The notes under the pieces: generated by a model | The model's database searches: none | What the model was told of the DNA's origin: nothing | The model's input: only the letters and a program-made list of their open reading frames with translations | Source of the DNA: a virus | Length of the DNA: 24,729 nt | Direction: 5' to 3' (one strand) | Virus record (IMG/VR): IMGVR_UViG_3300009376_000516 | Location: 1-24,729 of that record | Made by a program: the position numbers and the translations under genes | Shown: positions 5,178 to 24,669 of the stretch, one piece after another | Layout: the number at the start of each line of letters is the position of its first letter | How positions within the stretch are numbered: the stretch's first letter is position 1

Positions 5178-7742
5178 TCAAAAAAATCTTTCTAAAGTAT
5201 ATCGTTCATCTACAGGTAAACCATATCCCATAGCATCATAAAACATTTTAATCTTCTTTTTAAGTGCTTGAGTATATAACTTATCAACATCTATATATTT
5301 TTTGATATAATCTAAAACTTCTGGTGGATCTTCATCCCCTTTATATGCTAAAACTGATAAACTAAGAGGATTTTGTTTTAAATAAACCCACTTAATTTTT
5401 TCTCCACCCACTATTTTAGAATATCTTTTCTTATCATAATAATCTATCATATCATTATATGCTAAAGATGCCTTTACATGAACTGGTGTGGCCTTAGCAT
5501 AATATGTTGATATTAATTTACCACCTACTGTAGTATCTTTATGTTGAAAATTTCTCTCATCTACATTTTTAATAAATTTACCTAATCGTTTAACTCCTGT
5601 GGGTGAAGCTATATCATCATAACTCATCGCCTTCATACCCTTTTTAAATGTAAAAATTCTTTCATCAATCTTTTCTTTAGGTACATTTGCCAATAAATCA
5701 TCCAATACTTCTGATAATAAAGTCTTCATTCCTTTAGCAAAAGAACTTCTAACTGTATCCAATCCTTTAACGTGAGTTTTATTAACTTTTCTACCTTCCT
5801 CGTTAATAATTTTCATTCCATATCGTTTCTTGGTAATGAATAATGAACTCTTTGCAATAACCTCTTGTTTAATTTCAAAATAATGTTTATCTAAATTTAA
5901 AAATCTCTTGGCAAATAAATCATAACTCTGATTCAAATACGCTTGAATCTCATCCGCAATATTAATAATATGTTGAGTCATCGTTGCTTCAGCACTAGTA
6001 TCAATTCCTTTATGTCTTGCTTTAACCAACGGTGTGGCTGATGCGAAAATACTATCTGTATCTATGTAAATCACATAATCTTCATTTGTACCAAGTTCCT
6101 TATTATAATAATGATTTGTAATCTTCTTACTAAATTTAATCAAAGATTGTCCTGTCATTGTAGTTGCCTCTGCATTATCAATATCATAAAACCTAAAAAC
6201 AGGTAATCCCAATACACCATACAATGAATTTAACAAAATTTTCTGTAGATATTGTCGTCTATTAAAATATTGAAACTTTTTATCATTCCCATCTTCGTTA
6301 AATTGTTTAGCTAATTTTCTAAATTGTACTCTATCGTCAAACCATTTACCAAGAATTGCTGGAATTAGTCCTACTTTATCCATTCTATATAATATCCCAT
6401 TAGAACTAATTGAAACTTTAGTTTTTTCAAAATACTCTTTTAATTCTGTTTCTGTCAACTTTCCTTTTTCTTTATCTCCTACCGTTATTGTATATGTTTT
6501 TTTATTATCTTTTTTAACAAATTCTTCGGAATTCCAACCAACAACTTTACCAATTTTAGTATCTGGAGATATATTCAATGAACGAATAACACTTGGATAC
6601 ATTGATGTAATATCTAAATCATAAACCCACTCATGTCTTCCTTGTATTGGGTCTTGAACATAAGCTCCTGCAAATTTATCACTACTTTTCCGTTTGTTCA
6701 TCAAAGCTCTAGCCTTTTTGTTTTTATTTGGTACAACCACATCTATTTTCTTACAATAAACTAAAATTGCTCCTTCTAAATAACGAGAACTTGCGTAAAT
6801 ATCTTCATATGATACATGACCAATATGACATATACCTCGTGATATTTCAATATAATCTAATTTCTTATCTAACTCTACAACTATATGAACATCATTTAAG
6901 TTATATGCTACAAACCGTTTTCTATCATTCTCATATAACTCATTAAGTGTTCCCTCATAAAATACTTTTGTTATTCCTATCTCATCTTCACCTACTGAAT
7001 CTAATCTATAAGATGGTTTCAAACTCGGTGTAAACTTTTTATATAATGCTAAATAATCTAAACAACTAACTCCAGCTATTTCAAATCTCTGTCTATAATC
7101 TGAATATTTAACAACTCCTATTGGTGATAATAACCCCGCAAACTCTTGACCTAATAATTGAAGTATTCTATTATACAAATACGGAATATCAAAATTATCT
7201 GTATTCCAGCCTGTAATAATTGTAGGTCTTATCTCACAATATTTACCCAAAAATGCATTTAACATCTCAATTTCTGATTTAAATCTAAGTACAGTATTAT
7301 TTCCATTTTTCAATATACCATCTTCTGATTTAATCTCAAGTTTATTCTCTGGGTCTAAAACATAACAATAATATTCGTCTGTAAGACTATCCCATAATGC
7401 AATAGAAGTTATTTTATTCTCTGCCTTTGATGGTGATGGAAATCCTTGTGTAACCTCTACCTCGATATCAAAAACCATAGTTCTATGACCTACCGATGGT
7501 TCATCTGAATCTGTATATTGGTCTACTAAAGTTCTTGTAGTTGCTATTACATCAGATTCATATAAATTTTCATCATCTTTATCATATCTAAAAACCTTTT
7601 TTAGTCGAGTTCCATCAAGTGCAGTAAATTTACCGTTCTTATCTTGTAAATAAGCATACCTTTTATATGGTGTTTTTCTATAACCTAATTTATCATCCCA
7701 TATATGAATTGATCTTCCATCAAAATAGATATTTTGATACAT
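5178..7742 (-). CDS. 43: Replicative DNA polymerase, family B (gp43-like)
   Basis: 854 residues, slightly shorter than T4 gp43 (898). The 3'-5' exonuclease motifs are intact: Exo I F-D-I-E (91-94), Exo II G-W-N-T-D-N-F-D (178-185) and Exo III Y-N-L-N-D-V (280-285). Polymerase motif A is D-I-T-S-M-Y-P-S (from D377), motif B K-I-L-L-N-S-L-Y-G (501-509) and motif C Y-I-D-T-D-S (559-564). It therefore has both polymerising and proofreading activity. The C-terminus ends in R-F-F, compatible with a clamp-binding tail. The upstream ribosome binding site is weak (a GGAAAG about 10 bases before the ATG), which may keep polymerase low relative to the clamp. Confidence 0.97.
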   Translation of the reverse strand: MYQNIYFDGRSIHIWDDKLGYRKTPYKRYAYLQDKNGKFTALDGTRLKKVFRYDKDDENLYESDVIATTRTLVDQYTDSDEPSVGHRTMVFDIEVEVTQGFPSPSKAENKITSIALWDSLTDEYYCYVLDPENKLEIKSEDGILKNGNNTVLRFKSEIEMLNAFLGKYCEIRPTIITGWNTDNFDIPYLYNRILQLLGQEFAGLLSPIGVVKYSDYRQRFEIAGVSCLDYLALYKKFTPSLKPSYRLDSVGEDEIGITKVFYEGTLNELYENDRKRFVAYNLNDVHIVVELDKKLDYIEISRGICHIGHVSYEDIYASSRYLEGAILVYCKKIDVVVPNKNKKARALMNKRKSSDKFAGAYVQDPIQGRHEWVYDLDITSMYPSVIRSLNISPDTKIGKVVGWNSEEFVKKDNKKTYTITVGDKEKGKLTETELKEYFEKTKVSISSNGILYRMDKVGLIPAILGKWFDDRVQFRKLAKQFNEDGNDKKFQYFNRRQYLQKILLNSLYGVLGLPVFRFYDIDNAEATTMTGQSLIKFSKKITNHYYNKELGTNEDYVIYIDTDSIFASATPLVKARHKGIDTSAEATMTQHIINIADEIQAYLNQSYDLFAKRFLNLDKHYFEIKQEVIAKSSLFITKKRYGMKIINEEGRKVNKTHVKGLDTVRSSFAKGMKTLLSEVLDDLLANVPKEKIDERIFTFKKGMKAMSYDDIASPTGVKRLGKFIKNVDERNFQHKDTTVGGKLISTYYAKATPVHVKASLAYNDMIDYYDKKRYSKIVGGEKIKWVYLKQNPLSLSVLAYKGDEDPPEVLDYIKKYIDVDKLYTQALKKKIKMFYDAMGYGLPVDERYTLERFF

Positions 7743-11465: not shown

Positions 11466-11690
11466 TTAAAAAAAGTCGTGTTCTACTAAGTTTGCTGGAT
11501 TGATTGCCTTCTCTACTCTCGCTTCAGCAATCTTAAAATATTCTTTTTCTTTCTCTATACCCAAGTATTTTCTATCTAAAGTCACACAAGAAATTGGTGT
11601 AGTGCCACTTCCCATAAATTCTTCGAGAAGTAAATCTCGTATTTTATTTTGTAATCTTCGACCTTTGGCCTTAGCTGAGCGTGTTTTCAT
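11466..11690 (-). CDS. Chimeric small ORF: resolvase-like N-terminus fused to methyltransferase C-terminus
   Basis: 74 residues, ATG with an AGAGG site. Residues 1-25 (M-K-T-R-S-A-K-A-K-G-R-R-L-Q and on to L-L-L-E-E-F) match the start of a phage family often called resolvase- or endonuclease-like, whose catalytic body is missing here. From residue 26 the sequence is instead the tail of a DPPY-class methyltransferase: M-G-S-G-T-T (SAM motif I), then Y-L-G-I-E-K and E-Y-F-K-I-A-E-A-R-V-E. The joint is abrupt, so this looks like a recombination scar. It overlaps the end of the intact methyltransferase by 20 bases. It may be inactive debris; supplying a SAM-binding half in trans is speculation. 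Confidence 0.6.
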   Translation of the reverse strand: MKTRSAKAKGRRLQNKIRDLLLEEFMGSGTTPISCVTLDRKYLGIEKEKEYFKIAEARVEKAINPANLVEHDFF

Positions 11691-13936: not shown

Positions 13937-14456
13937 TGTATTTACCAAAACTACCTAAATTTTCGCTTCCATTTTCTTCGATATTCGTCTTGTGCCCATT
14001 GTTCTTGTAAATCGTTACTCCCCCACGCCAACACGGATTGTTTTCCCCTTTGAACATTTCCGAAAACTTCTTCTTCTGTTTCGTTCCCCACTCCGTTTGC
14101 CAATGTTTGTTCCACCAATCCTTTTCTTTCAGAACTTTGTTTCTGTGCCTCGCCCTCTCCATTCCATTGCATTTGAAACCACAAAAGTTCTTCATTCGTT
14201 TTCTTTTCGGCCATCGGCGTAGATAAACTATTCCACACTCCATGCACATCATCCACATATACGGTTTTAGCCGTTTGTCCAATTTCTTGAACTTTTTGAA
14301 ATACAAGTTTTCCGTTTTGTTCAATAAGGACACGGTGATCTTTGGTGACGAGTTGGTCTGTAAAATCTGATTTAATTCTATAGATGGTATCCTGGATGTT
14401 ATATACATTCCATCTGTCCGGAACTTCCCATCTATAAGCATCGTTGTCTTTATCAT
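13923..14456 (-). CDS. Truncated homing-endonuclease remnant (zinc finger + NUMOD3), out of frame with the intein
   Basis: 177-residue frame, but only the second half is recognisable. A zinc finger C71-x2-C74...C92-x3-C96 is followed by a NUMOD3-type motif, G-E-N-N-P-C-W-R-G-G (137-146). These elements normally precede the catalytic domain of phage HNH homing endonucleases. Here the frame ends about 30 residues later, so the HNH histidines are missing. Residues 1-65 overlap the intein coding frame and are probably not translated as such; a start near 14260 is likelier. The stretch 13951-14245 is visibly richer in G+C than its surroundings and open in several frames on both strands, which suggests recent acquisition and means openness alone is not evidence. 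Probably a non-functional remnant. Confidence 0.5.
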   Translation of the reverse strand: MIKTTMLIDGKFRTDGMYITSRIPSIELNQILQTNSSPKITVSLLNKTENLYFKKFKKLDKRLKPYMWMMCMECGIVYLRRWPKRKRMKNFCGFKCNGMERARHRNKVLKEKDWWNKHWQTEWGTKQKKKFSEMFKGENNPCWRGGVTIYKNNGHKTNIEENGSENLGSFGKYNDIY

Positions 14457-14852
14457 AAATTAAAATCTCCGTTTGTCTATCTATAAATAGAGATAAGTTG
14501 GATTTATGTAACCGTTTCCATCCACTTTTTGTAAAAACTTCTGTATCTTCTGATAGACAAGCGTATGCCCAATAGATTGGTGTGAAACCAATTCTAAATC
14601 CAACTTCCTCTAACATTTGAACCATTCTGTATTGAACATCACTTCTTGGTGCACTCATCACGAATGCAAATGCACCAGGTTTTAATACTCGTAAGGATTC
14701 TTCAAATATTTCTTTAGGTGGTAACATCTTATCCCAATCCTTACCCATAAATCCATATCCATATGGTGGGTCTGTGCAAAGTAAATCTACTGAATTATCT
14801 TCGAGTTTTTTAGTTCGTCAGCACTATCTCCATTAATTAGTTTACTATCCAC
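13951..14852 (-). CDS. Intein-interrupted DNA methyltransferase, N-terminal part, with -1 frameshift
   Basis: The gene begins at a GTG at 14852 behind an AAAGGG site. The first 16 codons (V-D-S-K-L-I-N-G-D-S-A-D-E-L-K) look like a methyltransferase start. At the A6 run (14806-14811) the frame must slip back one base to continue L-E-D-N-S-V-D-L-L-C-T-D-P-P-Y-G; without the slip translation stops at 14787. The catalytic D-P-P-Y is intact, then M-G-K-D-W-D-K and the region up to I-Y-W-A-Y-A. There a cysteine opens an intein N-terminus. The methyltransferase C-terminus with SAM motif I is absent: the frame ends at 13951 in low-complexity-looking sequence. Related intact enzymes continue S-G-F-P-K after this point; no such sequence is in the window. 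Probably a broken gene, or half of a split one. Confidence 0.7.
14254..14559 (-). other. N-terminal intein splicing domain (blocks A and B)
   Basis: Block A starts with the splicing cysteine at codon 14559-14557: C-L-S-E-D-T-E-V-F-T-K-S-G-W-K. Block B follows as L-V-T-K-D-H-R-V-L, with the conserved T-x-x-H. These are the residues needed for the first N-S acyl shift. The insertion lies directly after I-Y-W-A-Y-A in the methyltransferase. No block F/G (H-N at the C-terminal junction) was found in any frame nearby. It is therefore either a truncated intein or the N-half of a split intein whose C-half is elsewhere. Recognisable intein sequence stops near 14254, just where the zinc-finger frame becomes recognisable. 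Confidence 0.85.
14805..14811 (-). promoter_or_regulatory. A AAA AAC slippery heptamer in phase, at the methyltransferase frameshift
   Basis: On the coding strand the codons are CTA AAA AAC, giving the classic X-XXY-YYZ heptamer in the correct phase for -1 slippage. The shift would join the N-terminal codons exactly to the DPPY frame. However, loss of one A from an original A7 run would create the same heptamer automatically, so the motif is not independent proof of programmed frameshifting. A sequencing error in the homopolymer is the third explanation. Confidence 0.5.
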
Positions 14853-15917: not shown

Positions 15918-16106
15918 TTATATTTTTTCTTCGCCATACAGCCCGTTTCTTAAATTTTCTTCAATTTCTAATTGTCTTTTCTTTTTATACCGTTCTCTGG
16001 CCAATTTTCGCAATTTTTCCTTATTACGCTCATAGTGTTCCATTTGCCAGCGTTTCTGTGCATCGTGTTGTTCTTTTGTGGTAAAATATTTACGCTTTCT
16101 TCCCAT
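15918..16106 (-). CDS. Small basic protein, paralogue of the 9.8-kb one
   Basis: 62 residues, ATG start overlapping the end of the 5'-nuclease gene by 17 bases. The first two thirds are Lys/Arg-rich and predicted helical, with R-K-Y-F-T-T-K-E-Q at the start, shared with the 46-residue protein at 9811-9951; this copy has an extra acidic tail. No function is assigned to such proteins. The charge pattern suggests nucleic-acid binding, which is inference. Confidence 0.7.
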   Translation of the reverse strand: MGRKRKYFTTKEQHDAQKRWQMEHYERNKEKLRKLARERYKKKRQLEIEENLRNGLYGEEKI

Positions 16107-17154
16107 GACTCATTCTAGCGTATCTATTTAATTGAGTAAAATTTTGTGCCAACCAACCTTGTAAATTTGGTAAAGATGTAAATAATCTATCTTCCATAAA
16201 CATGGTTTCAAATTTATATTTTACTAATTCAGTAATTGGTTTCTCTATACCTGATAATATTTTCATTCTAGCATTTCCAGAAATATCTACATTTTTTAAC
16301 TGCATTAATTTATCATTAATTTCTAATTGTTCTTTACAAACAACAACACTCTCATATAACTTTAATTCATCTTTATGCTTTTCAGAATATTCAACAATTT
16401 CTTTCAATGTAACATGATTATCTTTATCTATTATATCTGGAAATCTCTTTTTAATCGTGGTTAATCCTGCACCCTTAACCCCAGGTATATTATCAGATTT
16501 ATCCCCTTCTAATATTCTGTATGTTAGGAAATTCTTTGATGGTATTCCATATTCTTCCATCAAGGATTCTCTATCGTAAGTTTTCTTTTTCGTGGGTGAA
16601 TATACTTTAATTCTGTGATTGACTAATTGTAGAAAGTCCTTGTCGGTAGACATTATAGTAATCTTACTTTCATCAAAAACTTGTTTAGATAAATAACCAA
16701 TAGTGTCATCGGCCTCAATATTATCTATTGATAAAGTAGAAACTGGTAATAATTCCAAATACTCAACAATTCTTTTGAGTTGCATAAGCATATTTTGCCG
16801 TTCTTCTTCTTGTGTATTAAAATCATACGCTCGAACAAGTTTTTTCTTAACTTTACGACCTGCCTTATACTCTGGAAATAACTTACGGCGGCGGGTGCTC
16901 CCACCCTTACCATCAAAAACTATAATGGCTCGGGTGGGATTAAATAGATGAATTGCGTAACCTATACTTTTCAGAAAGCCAACTATTCCCCCAATGTGAA
17001 CACCGTCATCATTGAGAGTTGGCATAACACTAAATACTCGTATAAAAGTATTTAGGCCATCTATGATTAGTACTTTATCATTGAAGTGACCATCATCTAA
17101 TTTACCGCCTTTTTTCTTAATTTCCTCAAGTATACTAAAATATCGATTATTCAT
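16090..17154 (-). CDS. rnh: 5'-3' exonuclease / flap endonuclease, T4 RNase H-like
   Basis: 354 residues, a little longer than T4 RNase H (305). The metal-binding acidic residues of the FEN family can be read: D32 (I-I-D-G-L-N), D81 (F-D-G-K), E147/D149/D150 (I-E-A-D-D), D171/D173 (T-D-K-D-F) and D218/D221 in G-D-K-S-D-N-I-P-G-V-K-G-A-G, the helix-hairpin-helix region. The enzyme removes RNA primers and flaps from Okazaki fragments. It overlaps the RecA-like gene by 8 bases and lies two genes after the gp32-like SSB, with which T4 RNase H works. A DNA polymerase I 5'-nuclease domain has the same motifs, but the neighbours favour the phage enzyme. Confidence 0.92.
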   Translation of the reverse strand: MNNRYFSILEEIKKKGGKLDDGHFNDKVLIIDGLNTFIRVFSVMPTLNDDGVHIGGIVGFLKSIGYAIHLFNPTRAIIVFDGKGGSTRRRKLFPEYKAGRKVKKKLVRAYDFNTQEEERQNMLMQLKRIVEYLELLPVSTLSIDNIEADDTIGYLSKQVFDESKITIMSTDKDFLQLVNHRIKVYSPTKKKTYDRESLMEEYGIPSKNFLTYRILEGDKSDNIPGVKGAGLTTIKKRFPDIIDKDNHVTLKEIVEYSEKHKDELKLYESVVVCKEQLEINDKLMQLKNVDISGNARMKILSGIEKPITELVKYKFETMFMEDRLFTSLPNLQGWLAQNFTQLNRYARMSHGKKA

Positions 17155-18244
17155 CTCCCTCTACTTCTTCTTTTACGAGTTCAGATTCGTCCATATCTTT
17201 TATATCATACTTAAGAATTACTTTTTCACAAATTCTATCATAAACTTCATCCTTCAAAGAATTTTCTTCTAATATTTTAAGAAAATCTTTAGATTGAAAT
17301 TTATATTCTTCACCTGCAACATCGGTATATGTATACCAAGCTCCTGCAGACTTTACCAACTTATGTTTTTTCATTACTTCTAACCAAGAACCCACATCAT
17401 CAATTCCACTTTCAAAATATAGTGGGAATTCGGCATGTCTTAATGGTGGCCCAAGTCTATTCTTAACAACTTGTGCCTGTATTGTCATTCCCAATACATT
17501 TTTCTTGGTATCTGTTATTCTACCTTTATTCTTTAATCGAATACGAGTAGAAGCGTGAAAAGGAAGAGCTTTCCCACCTGAAGTTGTCCAAGGATCTCCG
17601 AACATTACTCCAAGTTTCGTCCTTAGTTGATTTGTAAAGACAAGTGCTATTCTTTGACGACCAATCAACTGGGTAATCTTTCTCATAGCTTTTGATATAA
17701 TAATCGCTTTGGAAGTTGCCCATCCGTCTTTTTCGAAATCTGCGTCTATCTCTACTTGTGTGGAAGCAGCAGCCAAACTATCAACTAATATTGTAACCAA
17801 CCTATCCTTTTCAGCCTCTCTCACCTTAAGAACAATCTCCTCGATTGCCTGGAAAATTTCTTCTACAGTTTGTAATTGTAAGTAAAGTAACTGTGCCGTA
17901 TCTATACCCAATACTTTTAAAAACTCCTCACTAACGGCATTCTCTGTATCGATATATACAGCAACTCCGCCTTTCTTTTGGGTTTCTGCAAGTATGTGAG
18001 CACCGATTAAAGATTTACCACTTGATTCTAAACCATTAATTTCAGTAATACGACCTACCGCAATACCACCATTTGGTTTATTAGCAATTGCCAAATCCAA
18101 CATAGTCGAACCTGTCGAAATAAATTCTTTAATATCTGTGGGTGTTGCATCATGCCCGTCCAAGAAATATGCTACTTTCATATCCTTGAACTGTTTATTT
18201 AAACTATCGGCTAATACATTTGCCAATTCGTCTCTAACTGACAT
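17147..18244 (-). CDS. uvsX: RecA/UvsX recombinase
   Basis: 365 residues, like RecA (353) and T4 UvsX (391). Walker A G-L-E-S-S-G-K-S is at 71-78, the catalytic glutamate E101 follows Y-I-D-T, and Walker B I-L-V-D-S is at 152-156. The L2 DNA-binding loop lies in the N-Q-L-R-T...T-S-G-G-K-A-L segment (about 205-230). The E-S-S-G-K motif and T-S-G-G-K-A-L are closer to bacterial RecA than to T4 UvsX. The C-terminus is acidic, as in RecA. It catalyses strand exchange for recombination-dependent replication. The ATG follows a GGAG site. No UvsY or UvsW is visible in the window. Confidence 0.93.
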   Translation of the reverse strand: MSVRDELANVLADSLNKQFKDMKVAYFLDGHDATPTDIKEFISTGSTMLDLAIANKPNGGIAVGRITEINGLESSGKSLIGAHILAETQKKGGVAVYIDTENAVSEEFLKVLGIDTAQLLYLQLQTVEEIFQAIEEIVLKVREAEKDRLVTILVDSLAAASTQVEIDADFEKDGWATSKAIIISKAMRKITQLIGRQRIALVFTNQLRTKLGVMFGDPWTTSGGKALPFHASTRIRLKNKGRITDTKKNVLGMTIQAQVVKNRLGPPLRHAEFPLYFESGIDDVGSWLEVMKKHKLVKSAGAWYTYTDVAGEEYKFQSKDFLKILEENSLKDEVYDRICEKVILKYDIKDMDESELVKEEVEGDE

Positions 18245-18261: not shown

Positions 18262-19023
18262 TTACTTATCAAAAAGTTCGTTAAAGGCCTCTGAAACATT
18301 CTCTACACTCTTAGCAGATTCTACGGATTGTGCCGTAGTTACTGAGTCAGTAGTGTTTTCTACTGTTTCCTCTTCTCGTCCTTCCAACCAATTATTCAGA
18401 ATCTCCGTAAGTTCATCATAAGTTTTTTCCTGATAAATCTCAGTAATATCCTTTTGGGTATCTGCTACCTTTTCAAGAATATTCTTATCTTCACTTATTG
18501 GTGTCTGTAGTGGTTTAACTCGGATTGCGGTAGATGGAAACGATGCTCCTGTTTCTTCTGCAGTCTTAAATTCAACTGTAACATCACGACCACTTACTGG
18601 GTCTGTAATATCACCATAGTCTGGATCTGCGATAACAGAAAGTATCTCTTGATAAACTGTCTTACCAAAACCCCAAAACTTTGTACCTTGTGATTCTTCA
18701 CCACGAACAATCACTGGTGCAAAAGTTCTCATTTTGGCTTCGAGTTTTTTACCAAGACGATAATCATCACGATTACCTGATGCCTTTAGTTTCTGTGCGA
18801 ACTCCTCAATAGGGTCTGGACGACCAAAACTAATTGGGGATAAATAGGATTTGCCTCCCAAATCATAATGGAAAAACAATTCAATGAACGGATTATCCTT
18901 ATTGAATTTATAAGGTACTAATCTAATTTGTTGTGTTCCTGGTTGTGGTTTCCAAAGATTTGAAGTTCTTTGTGTTGATGTTTGTAACTGATTTAAACGT
19001 CGCTTGACTTTATCTAAGTCCAT
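18262..19023 (-). CDS. 32: Single-stranded DNA-binding protein, gp32-like
   Basis: 253 residues (T4 gp32 has 301). The N-terminal basic region K-V-K-R-R-L-N-Q-L resembles the cooperativity (LAST-type) segment. The core has R-L-V-P-Y-K, F-F-H-Y-D-L, A-P-V-I-V-R-G and K-F-W-G-F-G-K, matching the OB-fold of marine T4-like gp32. The last 50 residues are acidic and Ser/Thr-rich, as in the gp32 protein-interaction tail. There are no cysteines, so the T4 zinc finger is missing. It coats single strands and recruits helicase loader, recombinase and RNase H. It is first of the SSB-recombinase-nuclease set and has a long structured leader. Confidence 0.85.
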   Translation of the reverse strand: MDLDKVKRRLNQLQTSTQRTSNLWKPQPGTQQIRLVPYKFNKDNPFIELFFHYDLGGKSYLSPISFGRPDPIEEFAQKLKASGNRDDYRLGKKLEAKMRTFAPVIVRGEESQGTKFWGFGKTVYQEILSVIADPDYGDITDPVSGRDVTVEFKTAEETGASFPSTAIRVKPLQTPISEDKNILEKVADTQKDITEIYQEKTYDELTEILNNWLEGREEETVENTTDSVTTAQSVESAKSVENVSEAFNELFDK

Positions 19024-19127
19024 TTGTTAATCTCCTATATGTATGTTTTATTTATTATTTTATATTTGTCAATGGTAATTCGTAATAACGAAGTAACCAT
19101 ATTCACATATAAATATCATGTATATTA
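19024..19127 (-). promoter_or_regulatory. 104-base gp32 leader with hairpin (19072-19100), a candidate autoregulatory operator
   Basis: An imperfect hairpin spans 19072-19100: outer stem ATGGT with ACCAT, inner stem TTCGT with ACGAA, and a four-base AATA loop, interrupted by a small asymmetric internal loop. On the mRNA the hairpin is followed by about 40 unstructured A/U bases and then an AGGAG ribosome binding site 7-8 bases before the ATG. T4 gp32 represses its own translation by binding cooperatively to an A/U-rich leader downstream of a folded element, so the layout fits. The hairpin lacks a T-run on either side, so a terminator is less likely. No promoter could be recognised with confidence. 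Confidence 0.5.
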
Positions 19128-19976
19128 TTAAAATACATTTATTTTTTTACTATTTTCGATAATTTTTAAGGCATACTCTAAATTGAATCGGCCTGCCTTC
19201 GGCGTACCATCAACCTTTGCATCCGACTCTCCTAATGGTTTCAACCATAAGAAACCATCACAATTTTTAATCTCTGTATTCAATGTAGGATACTCTCCTA
19301 TTGCTATATTTGTAGGATTGTATATATTTCCTGTATATCCTAGCCCATTTCTTGAAGTATCTATAACAAAATTCTTACCAATGTAATTACTTATCTCTGA
19401 ACCATATTCTACACACGAATCTGTATCTACAAAGTTACAACAATTCAATGTAAATCCTTCATATGGTATTTTTTTAAACCTTTTTAGTAACGAACATACT
19501 TCACTTACTTTCAACCAGTTTGGATGCCCACTATCTATATAAGTTTTAGCATTTGTTTTACTTAATAATTTAAGTGAAGTTTGCATCAACTTTATTCGTT
19601 GTTGTGATTTTTTCTTAGTTAGTTTAACACCATCACACAATGCATCTGGTTCGTATATTATTATTGGTGAATGATTTCCAATTCCTTCAATAACCTCATT
19701 TATAAATTTTAAATAAGACTCTTCATCTTTTTCTCCACCCATAGAATGTCTTCCACTAATATCTCTATTCGGAATAGAATAGATTACAAATACAACTGTT
19801 TTATTTTTTGCTCTCTTTAACAACCGATGAACTCGTGAAGGCACACGTTTTAATTTATGGTATCTATCTCTACCCAACCAAATAGCCATCGGTTGAGAAT
19901 AGATTTTTCCCAAATCTCCGTGTTCTTTAACTAAGTTCTGATGTTGTATGTAATCAGGATAAAATAAATCCGTCAA
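19128..19976 (-). CDS. Glycoside hydrolase family 6 (cellulase-type) protein
   Basis: 282 residues, TTG start with AGGA just upstream. GH6 enzymes hydrolyse beta-1,4-glucans with inversion. Family motifs appear in order: V-F-V-I-Y-S-I-P-N-R-D (D72), I-I-I-Y-E-P-D-A-L (D111, the general acid), Y-I-D-S-G-H-P-N-W-L (146-155), G-F-T-L-N-C-C-N-F, F-V-I-D-T-S-R-N-G (203-211), and L-W-L-K-P-L-G-E-S-D (243-252) followed by A-G-R-F-N-L-E-Y. D72, D111 and D252 correspond to the catalytic aspartates of Trichoderma Cel6A (D175, D221, D401). There is no signal peptide or cellulose-binding domain, so it would stay inside the cell until lysis. It sits directly upstream of gp32. Activity on a host or algal polysaccharide is inference. 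Confidence 0.9.
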   Translation of the reverse strand: MTDLFYPDYIQHQNLVKEHGDLGKIYSQPMAIWLGRDRYHKLKRVPSRVHRLLKRAKNKTVVFVIYSIPNRDISGRHSMGGEKDEESYLKFINEVIEGIGNHSPIIIYEPDALCDGVKLTKKKSQQRIKLMQTSLKLLSKTNAKTYIDSGHPNWLKVSEVCSLLKRFKKIPYEGFTLNCCNFVDTDSCVEYGSEISNYIGKNFVIDTSRNGLGYTGNIYNPTNIAIGEYPTLNTEIKNCDGFLWLKPLGESDAKVDGTPKAGRFNLEYALKIIENSKKINVF

Positions 19977-19988
19977 AATTCCTATAAC

Positions 19989-20402
19989 CTATTCTGTTGT
20001 TCCCCATTCTGTAATATTCACTATCTTATAAATTTTTGTTTTTATTCTCACTAAACCTTTTTCATTATTTAATAAAATTGAATTTCTATAATTCTCCCAA
20101 GGTACAATATAAGTTTTATCTAAAACTCCATCATTTAATTCTCTAATGATATCGTTCAATGCATTGATTGTATAAAGTGTATTGGTTTGTTTCTTTCTAT
20201 GTAGAGAAATTGTATCTGGAATACCTTCCATAAAATTATCATCGTATTCTACATTATATGTACATACTAATTGATTTTTATCCTCTTCATTCTGAAATAC
20301 ATATATTTTATCATACATTATAGTATTACACGAAATAATAATATCAATTATTTCATTTAAATCGTTTATATTAGTAAATGTGCAAAGTAATTGTGTTCTC
20401 AT
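19989..20402 (-). CDS. Conserved phage protein of unknown function
   Basis: 137 residues, ATG start overlapping the stop of the 688-residue gene. The N-terminus M-R-T-Q-L-L-C-T-F and the central S-L-H-R-K-K-Q-T-N-T-L-Y-T-I-N-A-L-N look like a protein I associate with marine T4-like phages near gp32, with no known role. It is mixed alpha/beta with no membrane segment or catalytic motif. I infer a soluble replication-associated or regulatory protein, without evidence for a specific function. Confidence 0.65.
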   Translation of the reverse strand: MRTQLLCTFTNINDLNEIIDIIISCNTIMYDKIYVFQNEEDKNQLVCTYNVEYDDNFMEGIPDTISLHRKKQTNTLYTINALNDIIRELNDGVLDKTYIVPWENYRNSILLNNEKGLVRIKTKIYKIVNITEWGTTE

Positions 20403-22468
20403 TATGATTTACTCCCTAAACAATTTTCCATATCTGTTCCTAAACTACCTGCAATTTTACTTAAATCTCCAGCAGTTCTCCAAGTATCATTTCCTAACTC
20501 TATTTCTTTACCCTCTCCAGTTACAAACATAAGTTTTTGTGTTCCTGGTTTTATTCTCATATTTTTTTCTAAATGGTCACTTAATTTTCCTTTACCATCC
20601 CATTCTGACAATTTAGCTAAACAATCTTTAAAGGTCTTTGTAGTAAATGTTTTATCTCCTATTTCAATTATTTTTCTACCTTCATCTGTACCATCAGCAT
20701 ATCTATCCCAATGCATTCTTTTCATAAATGCTTTATTAACCGTTCTTTCGTGAGGCCCTGCTTCATTTTCATATTTCTCTCTCGCCTCTTCTTCACTCAT
20801 ACCCTGTTCCATATAATATGAAACATCTAATTCTACAGTACTTCTATGTACTTCAGCGTGTGATTCACTTATGGCATCATCTCTATCATTTTTACTTTTT
20901 TCAAGTTTTTCTAAAGCTTTATTGTTATAAATATCTAAACAATCTTTAGCTGATAATCCACCGCCCCCAATACCACCATTAAGAGTAGCTGCTAGTTTGG
21001 CTGCCTCTTCAACGGATAGTTCTGGATTTTTCTTCATCTCTCTGTTCATTACTTCTCTAACTTTAGATGTAGTTCGTGATATTTTCATCACAAGTTTATT
21101 TGCAGCTTGTTTTTGTGAATCATTAATCTCATCAATAGGTGGTTTTCCCGTAACATCAAAAGCACATTCAACTACGTGTTCATCATTTTTTATATCATAG
21201 CCTTTACTTTCTATACAATCTTTAATAGTTGGTGATTGTCTTGCTTTATTAATGTATTTATCTGTTGATGGTTCATAAATACCTCTACCTGTAAGAGCTT
21301 TTGTTGCTACTTTTGTCAGAGGAGCGTTATTTAATTCTTCTCTATTTTCATCAATTAGTTTTCTATTTCTTGTTGTATACGTTTTATTAAACTCTACGGC
21401 ATCAGCTACACTATCTTCAACCTGTTTTGCCAAAGCTTCAGCATTAGCACCTTCAACTTTTGATGCCTTTATAACTTCTGATGCTGATTTTACAGTTGCG
21501 TTTGAAAATGCATCAGAAAGTGATTGTTTATTAGATGAGTATACAACTCGAATTCTACCTTTACTATCAGTATATACCATAGCAGTATCACCATCACCCT
21601 CTGTTCCTGTAGATGAAGTTGCCATTTTTTGAAATGCTTTTAATTCGGCCTGATAATGTTTTCTTTCTTCGGGAGTTTTTGCTTCTTTTAGTTTTGTGAT
21701 TAAAAGATTTTGTGTTGTTTGAGTAGCTTCTTTTGTAAAAGTAACATTTAGAGGATATGGTTCTGGTTGTTCTTCTGCCATATCAAACCCATTCTTTTTA
21801 TCCCTAAGAATTTTCACCGCACTTAATCCAGATAATGTTGTATTAATTAAATTTTTTGCCTTTTGTGGTTTATCTATTTGTTTTATTATTCTTTCAGCTT
21901 CGTTTGGTTCATCCTTATAAAGTTCTCTAATATGATCTAAAACTCTTTCTTTATGTTTTTCAGGTGTATCTTTTGGATGTTTCAATGCTATTTCTCTTGA
22001 AATAGTTGCTAATTCTTCTCGTTGAGTTGTAGTTGAACCACCTTTACCTTTACGTTTTCTTGACAGTGCCCCTTTTCTATTTTCTGTTAAATCTTCCTCT
22101 GCCCGTTCAGGAGATGTTTCTTCAAAATCACCACCACCTAATTTTTCAGCTATTTCTTCTTCTGAATCCTTTTCAAAATCTGGTTCATATGAAGGTTTTT
22201 CTTTTTTTGGTTCTTTTTCAGGAGGAGTTCCATCTGAACCATACGGTAATCCCACTCTACCCAAAGCCCTATTTTTAGAATTATCTACATATTTTTTCTC
22301 TTCCGATAAATTATATAACAATTCAGTTATAACTTCTTCATCCCAATTAAAATCTTTCAAAATTTCTCTTAATTGGTATTGGTGTTCGGCATTCTTAGGA
22401 TTGGGTGTTCTGTTAGAACCAACTTTTCCTTTCCAAATTTCAAATATTTTATTTAAATCTGTAATCAT
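20402..22468 (-). CDS. Large phage protein of unknown function
   Basis: 688 residues, ATG start. The N-terminus carries T-P-N-P-K-N-A-E-H-Q-Y-Q-L followed by a short helical segment, a pattern that recurs at the N-termini of other marine-phage proteins. Residues 75-150 are very rich in Glu, Lys, Pro and Gly and probably disordered. The rest is helical and charged, with a Gly-rich turn (498-504). Three K-D-C-(I/L) motifs (416-419, 508-511, 614-617) and two further cysteines are evenly spread over the C-terminal half. The C-terminal 100 residues look like a separate domain. No enzyme motif is visible. It could be a scaffold, an internal virion protein or a replication accessory. It overlaps both neighbouring genes. 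Confidence 0.65.
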   Translation of the reverse strand: MITDLNKIFEIWKGKVGSNRTPNPKNAEHQYQLREILKDFNWDEEVITELLYNLSEEKKYVDNSKNRALGRVGLPYGSDGTPPEKEPKKEKPSYEPDFEKDSEEEIAEKLGGGDFEETSPERAEEDLTENRKGALSRKRKGKGGSTTTQREELATISREIALKHPKDTPEKHKERVLDHIRELYKDEPNEAERIIKQIDKPQKAKNLINTTLSGLSAVKILRDKKNGFDMAEEQPEPYPLNVTFTKEATQTTQNLLITKLKEAKTPEERKHYQAELKAFQKMATSSTGTEGDGDTAMVYTDSKGRIRVVYSSNKQSLSDAFSNATVKSASEVIKASKVEGANAEALAKQVEDSVADAVEFNKTYTTRNRKLIDENREELNNAPLTKVATKALTGRGIYEPSTDKYINKARQSPTIKDCIESKGYDIKNDEHVVECAFDVTGKPPIDEINDSQKQAANKLVMKISRTTSKVREVMNREMKKNPELSVEEAAKLAATLNGGIGGGGLSAKDCLDIYNNKALEKLEKSKNDRDDAISESHAEVHRSTVELDVSYYMEQGMSEEEAREKYENEAGPHERTVNKAFMKRMHWDRYADGTDEGRKIIEIGDKTFTTKTFKDCLAKLSEWDGKGKLSDHLEKNMRIKPGTQKLMFVTGEGKEIELGNDTWRTAGDLSKIAGSLGTDMENCLGSKS

Positions 22469-22871: not shown

Positions 22872-23408
22872 TTACCACCTATATAAAGAACCTGCTGCTA
22901 CATTTTGACTTCCTAATGTAGATAGTCCTTCGGTTTCAAATTCAAATTTGTATGGTAATACTTTAACAGGTAGGTTATAACCTAATGAGATTGCAACCAT
23001 AAATCGGGTATTTCCTGCAAATAAATATAAATTTTCTTTAGAATCCTTCACAACAAACGGTGTAGGAAACTTATTTGGTGGAATTGAAGTCATTCCCTTT
23101 AATACACTTTGCCAAGGTTTCTTATATTCATCTCCCAACTCTTTCATTCTCATAATTCTTTCTCGTATATCTTCTATTGATAATAATTCTGGTACATCTG
23201 AATTTTGTAAACTCATTAATTCTTTGTGTGATAGAAATTCTATTCTATTCGGTAATTGAAATAAACTCAATAAATCATCTTTATCTTTACCAAGTTTTGG
23301 CATCACCTTTTTCGTATATTCATTCCCAAAATATTCTTGAGTTTCATCGTCCAATTCTTCTTCTGTATAAGACCTAATATATTTATACGGTTTTAATTTA
23401 ACCAACAA
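22872..23408 (-). CDS. ParB/sulfiredoxin-like domain protein
   Basis: 178 residues, ATG start. The region around residues 115-150 reads F-V-V-K-D, then L-Y-L-F-A-G-N-T-R-F-M-V-A-I-S-L-G-Y-N-L-P-V-K-V-L. This matches the G-N/H-x-R signature of the ParB/sulfiredoxin fold (compare D-G-H-H-R in ParB-like nucleases). The N-terminal 110 residues are charged and not recognised. Family members act as nucleases, CTPases or modification-associated proteins. It overlaps the polymerase-like gene by 11 bases and ends just upstream of the Nudix gene. Function beyond the fold is unknown. Confidence 0.65.
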   Translation of the reverse strand: MLVKLKPYKYIRSYTEEELDDETQEYFGNEYTKKVMPKLGKDKDDLLSLFQLPNRIEFLSHKELMSLQNSDVPELLSIEDIRERIMRMKELGDEYKKPWQSVLKGMTSIPPNKFPTPFVVKDSKENLYLFAGNTRFMVAISLGYNLPVKVLPYKFEFETEGLSTLGSQNVAAGSLYRW

Positions 23409-24669
23409 ATTTCTCCGTTATATCTTCCATCTCGTGATAATTTAATCCCCAACTTATACTTGTTGGAAATTTACCATTTTGTTCAATTTCTTTTTTTAAT
23501 AACTTCAAATAATTTACACCATCCTCTACATTAAAATCAAATAAAAATGAATCGTAATTATACAATACCAATTTACTTTTATAATCTTTAATAATATTAA
23601 ATAAACTACTCAACATTTTCATATTAGATTCCGTTTCTAAACTCTGTATGAAATAATTAAATAGTTTATTCTTATTCATATCAGACACATTCTGACTAAA
23701 TATTCTTCTACTATAAATATTAGTATCTATATATTTATCTTTTTTATACGACTTCCACAACTCATTTATAAAATCTTGTACTTTACCAAAAAATGGATTC
23801 ATTTGTACTACTTCTATTGGAATATGTCCATATAAATACTGAAATGACCTTCTTTTAGATTCTTTATAATCACATCCATAAAATTTAGACATATGTTCAT
23901 GTACTGAACTTTCTGGGAATTTATAATTTACCACTTCACCTATCAATCTTAAGTGATATGCATCATAATCAAACTCAATTAGCTTCCCATTATTACCATA
24001 TCTACTTGTATAGGTTTTTCGAGTTTCATCTTCTTTATTTAATGCCGCATAATTTACTCCACCAAATCTATTTGATGGTCTACCCGTTGATGTAAATGGA
24101 TTGTATTGTGTATATACTAAATCATTATTATTATATAATCCAACATCCTCTATATTAAATAATGCTTCTGAAATTTCATTATATTCATCATTCTCTAAAC
24201 TATAATCTAAATTTAAACTACTTGAAAGTTTTTCTAAAAATTCGATTTGTTTCATTAAAGGAATTACAGTATTTAAATCTTCTGTATTGTAAAATTTACT
24301 ATTATAAAACTGTCTTGTATTATTTTCTAAATCATATAAATCAATCTCTTTATTATATTTCAAATAATATAAAGTATTTATATCAACCATATTATTAAAA
24401 TCTATAATATGTTTTAAAGATTTTACATCCCAAACATATTTTTTATTATCAGTTTTTAATAATTCAATATATTTTTTATCTAAATTTTTACAATCGTTGT
24501 GATTAAAAGGCAAAACATAGTCATCATCCATCTTAATATATAAGAATGATATCTCATTATGATGTGGATGTTTTAAAGTATCTGTTAAAAAATAATATAT
24601 AGAAGGAATTGTAGATTTATAGAGTTCTAAAAACTTTTTAAATTCTACATCATTCTCAATTATTATCAC
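23398..24669 (-). CDS. Family A DNA polymerase-like protein with altered motifs
   Basis: 423 residues, GTG start overlapping the upstream stop. The C-terminal half reads as a family A (Pol I/T7) palm and fingers: T-S-T-G-R (193-197), motif A D-Y-D-A-Y-H-L-R (234-241, compare D-Y-S-Q-I-E-L-R), a conserved H257, motif B K-R-R-S-F-Q-Y-L-Y-G (272-281), an F-I-Q-S-L-E-T-E segment and motif C Y-D-S (372-374, normally H-D-E). The metal aspartates D234 and D373 and the dNTP-contacting K272 are kept. The steric-gate glutamate is H239, the motif B arginine is missing and the motif C glutamate is serine. There is no recognisable exonuclease domain, and the N-terminal 180 residues are unassigned. It could be a specialised or inactive polymerase. 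Confidence 0.75.
   Translation of the reverse strand: MIIIENDVEFKKFLELYKSTIPSIYYFLTDTLKHPHHNEISFLYIKMDDDYVLPFNHNDCKNLDKKYIELLKTDNKKYVWDVKSLKHIIDFNNMVDINTLYYLKYNKEIDLYDLENNTRQFYNSKFYNTEDLNTVIPLMKQIEFLEKLSSSLNLDYSLENDEYNEISEALFNIEDVGLYNNNDLVYTQYNPFTSTGRPSNRFGGVNYAALNKEDETRKTYTSRYGNNGKLIEFDYDAYHLRLIGEVVNYKFPESSVHEHMSKFYGCDYKESKRRSFQYLYGHIPIEVVQMNPFFGKVQDFINELWKSYKKDKYIDTNIYSRRIFSQNVSDMNKNKLFNYFIQSLETESNMKMLSSLFNIIKDYKSKLVLYNYDSFLFDFNVEDGVNYLKLLKKEIEQNGKFPTSISWGLNYHEMEDITEKFVG

Follow-up and report, generated by a model that had tools for sequence, protein, structure and literature searches.

A probable GH6 β-1,4-glucanase of a phage-specific branch, encoded beside gp32 in an uncultivated virus

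We asked why a virus should carry a cellulase-type gene of glycoside hydrolase family 6 (GH6) beside the gene for the single-strand DNA-binding protein gp32, and where the encoded enzyme might act. The window, which is the whole stretch of 24,729 nucleotides analysed here (IMG/VR record IMGVR_UViG_3300009376_000516), had received a preliminary description made from its letters alone, in which the gene was placed within a phage replication operon. The features of the window used below are the following.

16090..17154, minus strand: 5'-3' exonuclease
17147..18244, minus strand: UvsX/RecA recombinase, the first conserved gene after gp32
18262..19023, minus strand: gp32-type single-strand DNA-binding protein (PF08804, E=6.5e-13, Pfam), right border of the cargo slot
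19024..19127, minus strand: GH6-gp32 spacer of 104 nt, gp32-leader-like in comparison with relatives that lack GH6
19128..19976, minus strand: GH6 (PF01341) single-domain glucanase of 282 aa, TTG start, D72/D111/D252 (ORF, Pfam, alignment and predicted fold)
19989..20402, minus strand: o137, a conserved ORF of 137 aa, left border of the cargo slot (comparison of loci)
20402..22468, minus strand: o688, an ORF of 688 aa upstream of o137, which varies between relatives
23398..24669, minus strand: family-A DNA-polymerase-like protein (weak match in Pfam), upstream limit of the block polA-o688-o137-[GH6]-gp32

Identity, active site and predicted fold

The GH6 reading frame has exactly the coordinates of the preliminary description, which had named no strand; it runs from 19976 to 19128 on the minus strand and comprises 282 codons. 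Its TTG start lies 12 nt past the stop codon of the upstream ORF, and the TTG together with the preceding 25 nt (including TAGGA) was identical across 17 related contigs. The Pfam profile Glyco_hydro_6 matched the ORF with 128.9 bits (cutoff 27, E=4.6e-37) over profile positions 17-298 of 305, and the best solved relative by sequence was M. tuberculosis Cel6 (E=7.5e-35). A search of PHROGs with the ORF gave no GH6 match.

D72, D111 and D252, which the preliminary description had read as the catalytic aspartates, aligned with D79, D117 and D265 of T. fusca Cel6A, so the EPD motif with its catalytic acid is in place, as are the remaining active-site Asp. Y66, D148, W154, W244, K246 and E250 were likewise retained. 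All three aspartates, together with D148, Y66, K246, E250 and W244, were invariant in 30/30 viral representatives. We considered whether the catalytic serine expected near position 85 of T. fusca had been lost, and rejected this because the serine lies one place earlier in most bacterial GH6s too.

An AlphaFold2 model built with 28 viral sequences reached pLDDT 89.6 and pTM 0.90. Foldseek ranked Cel6 first for this model (TM 0.88-0.89 to 1up0/1uoz), which has the distorted α/β barrel of GH6. The TM was 0.84-0.89 to short-loop endoglucanases, while the target-normalised TM to fungal cellobiohydrolases was about 0.59-0.66, and the protein has 282 aa compared with about 360 for the cellobiohydrolases. 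Its size and best Foldseek hits predict that it is of the endo subtype, with short active-site loops and an open cleft. Among the best matches of a BFVD fold search there was no viral protein of GH6 fold (top TM about 0.4).

The preliminary description had proposed a profile search and a structure prediction, and had stated that a missing GH6 profile hit, another fold or unaligned aspartates would speak against the family. We looked for all three and observed none: PF01341 was matched far above its cutoff and the predicted barrel superposed on 1up0 with TM 0.88. Profile, sequence, fold and alignment of the catalytic Asp exclude a chance resemblance, and both the GH6 identity and the competence of the protein are well supported.

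A viral branch with two lineages

Scanning viral contigs, we recovered 17 full copies of the gene that are nearly identical, plus a partial one; a profile-guided scan gave at least 142 viral GH6 loci, of which 80 were retained. Nearly all complete viral copies examined were ~280 aa long and started at the same place, without an extra N-terminal domain. Exactly one GH6 was present per contig in 11/11 large viral contigs. We placed viral GH6s in a tree of 59 sequences, together with 27 bacterial GH6s, the GH6 of phage Gilgamesh and one from a faecal phage contig. The viral GH6s formed one branch (support 100/100, stem of 0.9 changes per site), which divided into clade 1 (98/93) and clade 2 (100/98). 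On the opposite side of the tree lay all 27 bacterial GH6s and the two from named phage records, Gilgamesh and the faecal phage contig. Viral GH6 is therefore not a one-off, as it occurs at no fewer than these 142 loci and in two lineages of large phages; the phages that bear this branch are large and aquatic.

Recent capture from a bacterial host was not supported, since the closest GTDB relatives (among the best 80 listed, with eukaryotic GH6 represented through PDB only) were only 33-40% identical and fell apart from the viral branch in the tree. One GTDB record titled Klebsiella pneumoniae (L112) has a GH6 that groups among other bacteria; the record is a MAG and its name is probably wrong.

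The opinion that a cytoplasmic phage version of GH6, known from secreting fungi and bacteria, is unexpected was right as to the surprise, but earlier viral GH6 proteins exist (PMC8725595; Gilgamesh). Gp72 of Streptomyces phage Gilgamesh is also a phage GH6-like protein; it differs in its identity of about 30%, its place off the viral branch, its tail gene cluster and its larger size. The available portion of a report on Mariana Trench sediment describes a viral GH6, likewise from an uncultivated virus, as an auxiliary gene among other carbohydrate genes (PMC8725595). We compared it by description only, and the same portion analyses neither lineages nor disulfides nor an insertion slot. Our search of open-licence literature found no account of the present GH6 branch or of its split into two lineages, and none of the missing disulfides or the slot.

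In clade 2, a PA5oct-like lineage, the terminase of contig G005 was 58% identical to that of Pseudomonas jumbo phage PA5oct. GH6 directly or closely follows a peptide deformylase gene in this clade, often with an overlap of about 4 nt, and GT2-like glycosyltransferases are found near it. GH6 was nearby at 32/32 deformylase loci that were at least 48% identical to the query and at 0/47 loci of 45% or less. From these counts we conclude that GH6 is core in clade 2 and optional in clade 1. SufC-like and SufS-like iron-sulfur assembly genes were recognised by eye in G005 (L106:7217-10294).

The slot between o137 and gp32

The lineage of the window is clade 1, which is T4-like; contig G001 has Gp23 capsid and tail-sheath proteins. 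The gene order in clade 1 is polA-like, o688, o137, GH6, a variable insert, gp32, UvsX and exonuclease. The steady neighbour there is o137, directly upstream of GH6 in all clade-1 loci that extend that far. As the preliminary description had said, GH6 lies directly upstream of gp32, which is the next downstream gene.

A search for the same pair in other phages had also been suggested. The pair and its slot were found in clade-1 relatives, but GH6 was missing at 70/75 readable o137-gp32 loci, where gp32 usually lay about 100 nt past o137 (the 75 are the loci long enough to judge among the best o137 matches, and the fraction is no census). Judged by polymerase, UvsX and gp32, the closest named phage is Microcystis phage Mel-JY01 (44-53% identity), which has o137 and gp32 and lacks GH6. 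In other loci the slot held the UV endonuclease UvdE, DNA ligase, Ro60/TROVE, cold-shock, nuclease-like and other genes (L264, L057, L064, L259, L072). The constant presence with replication genes that would mark a phage replication protein was thus not observed; in clade 1 the gene has the properties of auxiliary cargo in a variable slot, with cellular homologues, and in clade 2 it is core. Because of the empty sites and the unrelated cargo we rejected a functional operon link between GH6 and gp32. The replication operon of the preliminary description gives way to an insertion slot, and the vicinity of gp32 is no evidence of a replication role.

The spacer before gp32 was similar in empty and filled sites, with an ATAYTTAT-like stretch, a hairpin and AGGAGA (L192, L200, L034 and others), and therefore we placed the insertion point directly after o137. 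For its resemblance to the o137-gp32 spacer of GH6-less relatives, 19024-19127 looks like a gp32 leader. The conserved leader stretch is a possible promoter or gp32 self-control site. The T4-type late promoter TATAAATA was not enriched upstream of the G001 structural genes, consensus promoters showed no excess over shuffles, terminator-like sites numbered 4 against 2.1 expected, and an Rfam search found nothing.

By a simple pairwise method, in which the pairs are not independent, median dN/dS was 0.19 for GH6; the corresponding values were 0.03 (o137), 0.10 (gp32), 0.12 (UvsX) and 0.06 (exonuclease). GH6 is under purifying selection. A decaying passenger gene of no present function would agree with a value above the 0.03-0.12 of the neighbours and with the patchy occurrence in clade 1, yet it is very improbable, as the catalytic residues are all invariant, the gene is core in clade 2 and no frame-broken copy was present in the 11 large contigs searched.

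G001 (L096:19200-20000 to L097:1-2019) also encodes an outer-membrane-receptor-like protein with CarbopepD_reg_2 and TonB-plug domains, which hints at a Bacteroidota/FCB-type host.

Cytosolic folding and possible site of action

The preliminary description had noted that the protein lacks a signal peptide and a binding module, and hydropathy and domain search agreed with it. In the window GH6 we detected no N-terminal hydrophobic stretch, signal peptide, lipobox, binding module or extra domain, and no viral copy had a hydrophobic signal or a binding module. The maximal 11-residue hydropathy was at most 1.13 within the first 40 aa of 30 viral proteins; upstream of the domain it was at least 1.94 in 26/27 bacterial GH6s. 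The catalytic domains of bacterial GH6s had exactly four Cys in 27/27 cases. The equivalents of T. fusca C80 and C125 were kept in 27/27 bacterial and lost in 30/30 viral proteins, and the C232-C267 pair was present in 27/27 bacterial, 0/15 clade-1 and 5/15 clade-2 sequences (both Cys in 5/30 viral). The window GH6 has 0/4 Cys equivalents of the two catalytic-domain disulfides, so it shares neither the export and binding features nor the disulfides of a secreted bacterial cellulase. Profile, fold, short-loop size and catalytic residues are common to it and to M. tuberculosis Cel6/CelA1 (1up0) and T. fusca Cel6A (1tml), but it is only about 30% identical to them, has no signal peptide, has lost the structural disulfides and sits on its own branch (stem 0.9).

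The loss of Cys and the absence of hydrophobic N-termini suggest, most simply, that viral GH6 folds in the cytosol, and all members of the viral branch are apparently adapted to production inside the infected cell. A cytoplasmic phage GH6 was rightly called unexpected. Taken together, the window gene is probably an intact and active endo-type GH6 β-1,4-glucanase of a phage-specific branch. A classical family of secreted cellulases has a distinct, disulfide-poor phage branch that occurs widely in viral metagenomes and is core in one of the two lineages. Such small enzymes, seemingly without need of disulfides, may lend themselves to easy expression in ordinary E. coli.

The preliminary description had suggested action on a β-glucan released at lysis, action on a host capsule, or repurposing, and each is still a candidate role. 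The reading that we favour, and to which we give roughly an even chance, is release at lysis and attack on a β-1,4-glucan outside cells. The enzyme would fold and accumulate in the cytosol during infection, under reducing conditions, and would be set free by lysis. It could then cut an exopolysaccharide with β-1,4 linkages, either cellulose-like or of mixed linkage, that belongs to the host or to neighbouring cells, which would let progeny leave aggregates or reach new cells. Erwinia phage S6, which encodes GH5 and GH48 enzymes, has cellulose as its first receptor, and its gp095 is active on a carboxymethylcellulose-type substrate (PMC9544554). We count S6 in favour of release at lysis, as a precedent for phages that attack bacterial cellulose, although its gp094 and gp095 (GH48, GH5), β-1,4-glucanases too, are of other families, larger, multi-domain and linked to adsorption. 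A soil viral chitosanase, of another family and with another substrate than the window GH6, is reported to be a functional virus-encoded glycoside hydrolase (PMC9485262).

We detected no holin or lysis gene linked to GH6. Genes of T4-like replication regions are usually expressed early or middle rather than late, so the position of GH6 among them gives a lysis role no support. Planktonic free-living hosts may also make little cellulose, which counts against release at lysis. Adjacency to gp32 argues for neither a lysis nor an intracellular role, since the slot accepts unrelated cargo.

The S6 cellulases tied to adsorption and the distant Gilgamesh GH6 in its tail gene cluster would fit a place in the virion, where the enzyme would open a glucan coat during adsorption in the manner of tail depolymerases. 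We consider this improbable for a single domain of 282 aa without a tail-attachment or trimerisation domain, whose gene lies in G001 among replication genes and outside the capsid and tail block. A metabolic auxiliary gene that supplies the host with cello-oligosaccharides during infection, as the Mariana Trench study named viral GH6 (PMC8725595), has an equally slim chance, as an enzyme without signal peptide cannot reach an outside polymer before lysis.

The main rival, possible if on the unlikely side, is that GH6 has its target within the infected cell, either a glucan or a β-glucosylated molecule, in the cytosol or at the inner face of the envelope, and serves host takeover or phage metabolism. 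It agrees with the absence of an export signal and the loss of disulfides in all members, with the replication genes beside GH6 in one lineage and the deformylase overlap of about 4 nt often seen in the other, and with a core GH6 near GT2-like glycosyltransferases in clade 2. However, we know of no cytosolic β-1,4-glucan in bacteria, the unchanged active site gives no sign of a new substrate, and phage endolysins too fold in the cytosol but act outside. Rather less probable still is the fuller form of this idea, by which GH6 evolved in phages into a branch that became fixed in one large-myovirus lineage and left the secreted world for an undescribed intracellular β-glucan or β-glucosylated molecule. 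Which β-glucan large aquatic phages need to cut becomes a testable question, with a bearing on how viral lysis alters exopolysaccharide and particle carbon.

Elsewhere in the window, a methyltransferase gene (13951-14748, minus strand) looks interrupted: homology to relatives ends near residue 63, after which comes an intein-like stretch (CLSEDTEV...TKDHRVLI), in which Pfam found no intein domain, and a piece like the methyltransferase C-terminus lies at 11466-11690 (minus strand). The phage also has a family-B polymerase (5178-7742, minus strand) in addition to the short family-A polymerase-like protein (23398-24669, minus strand).
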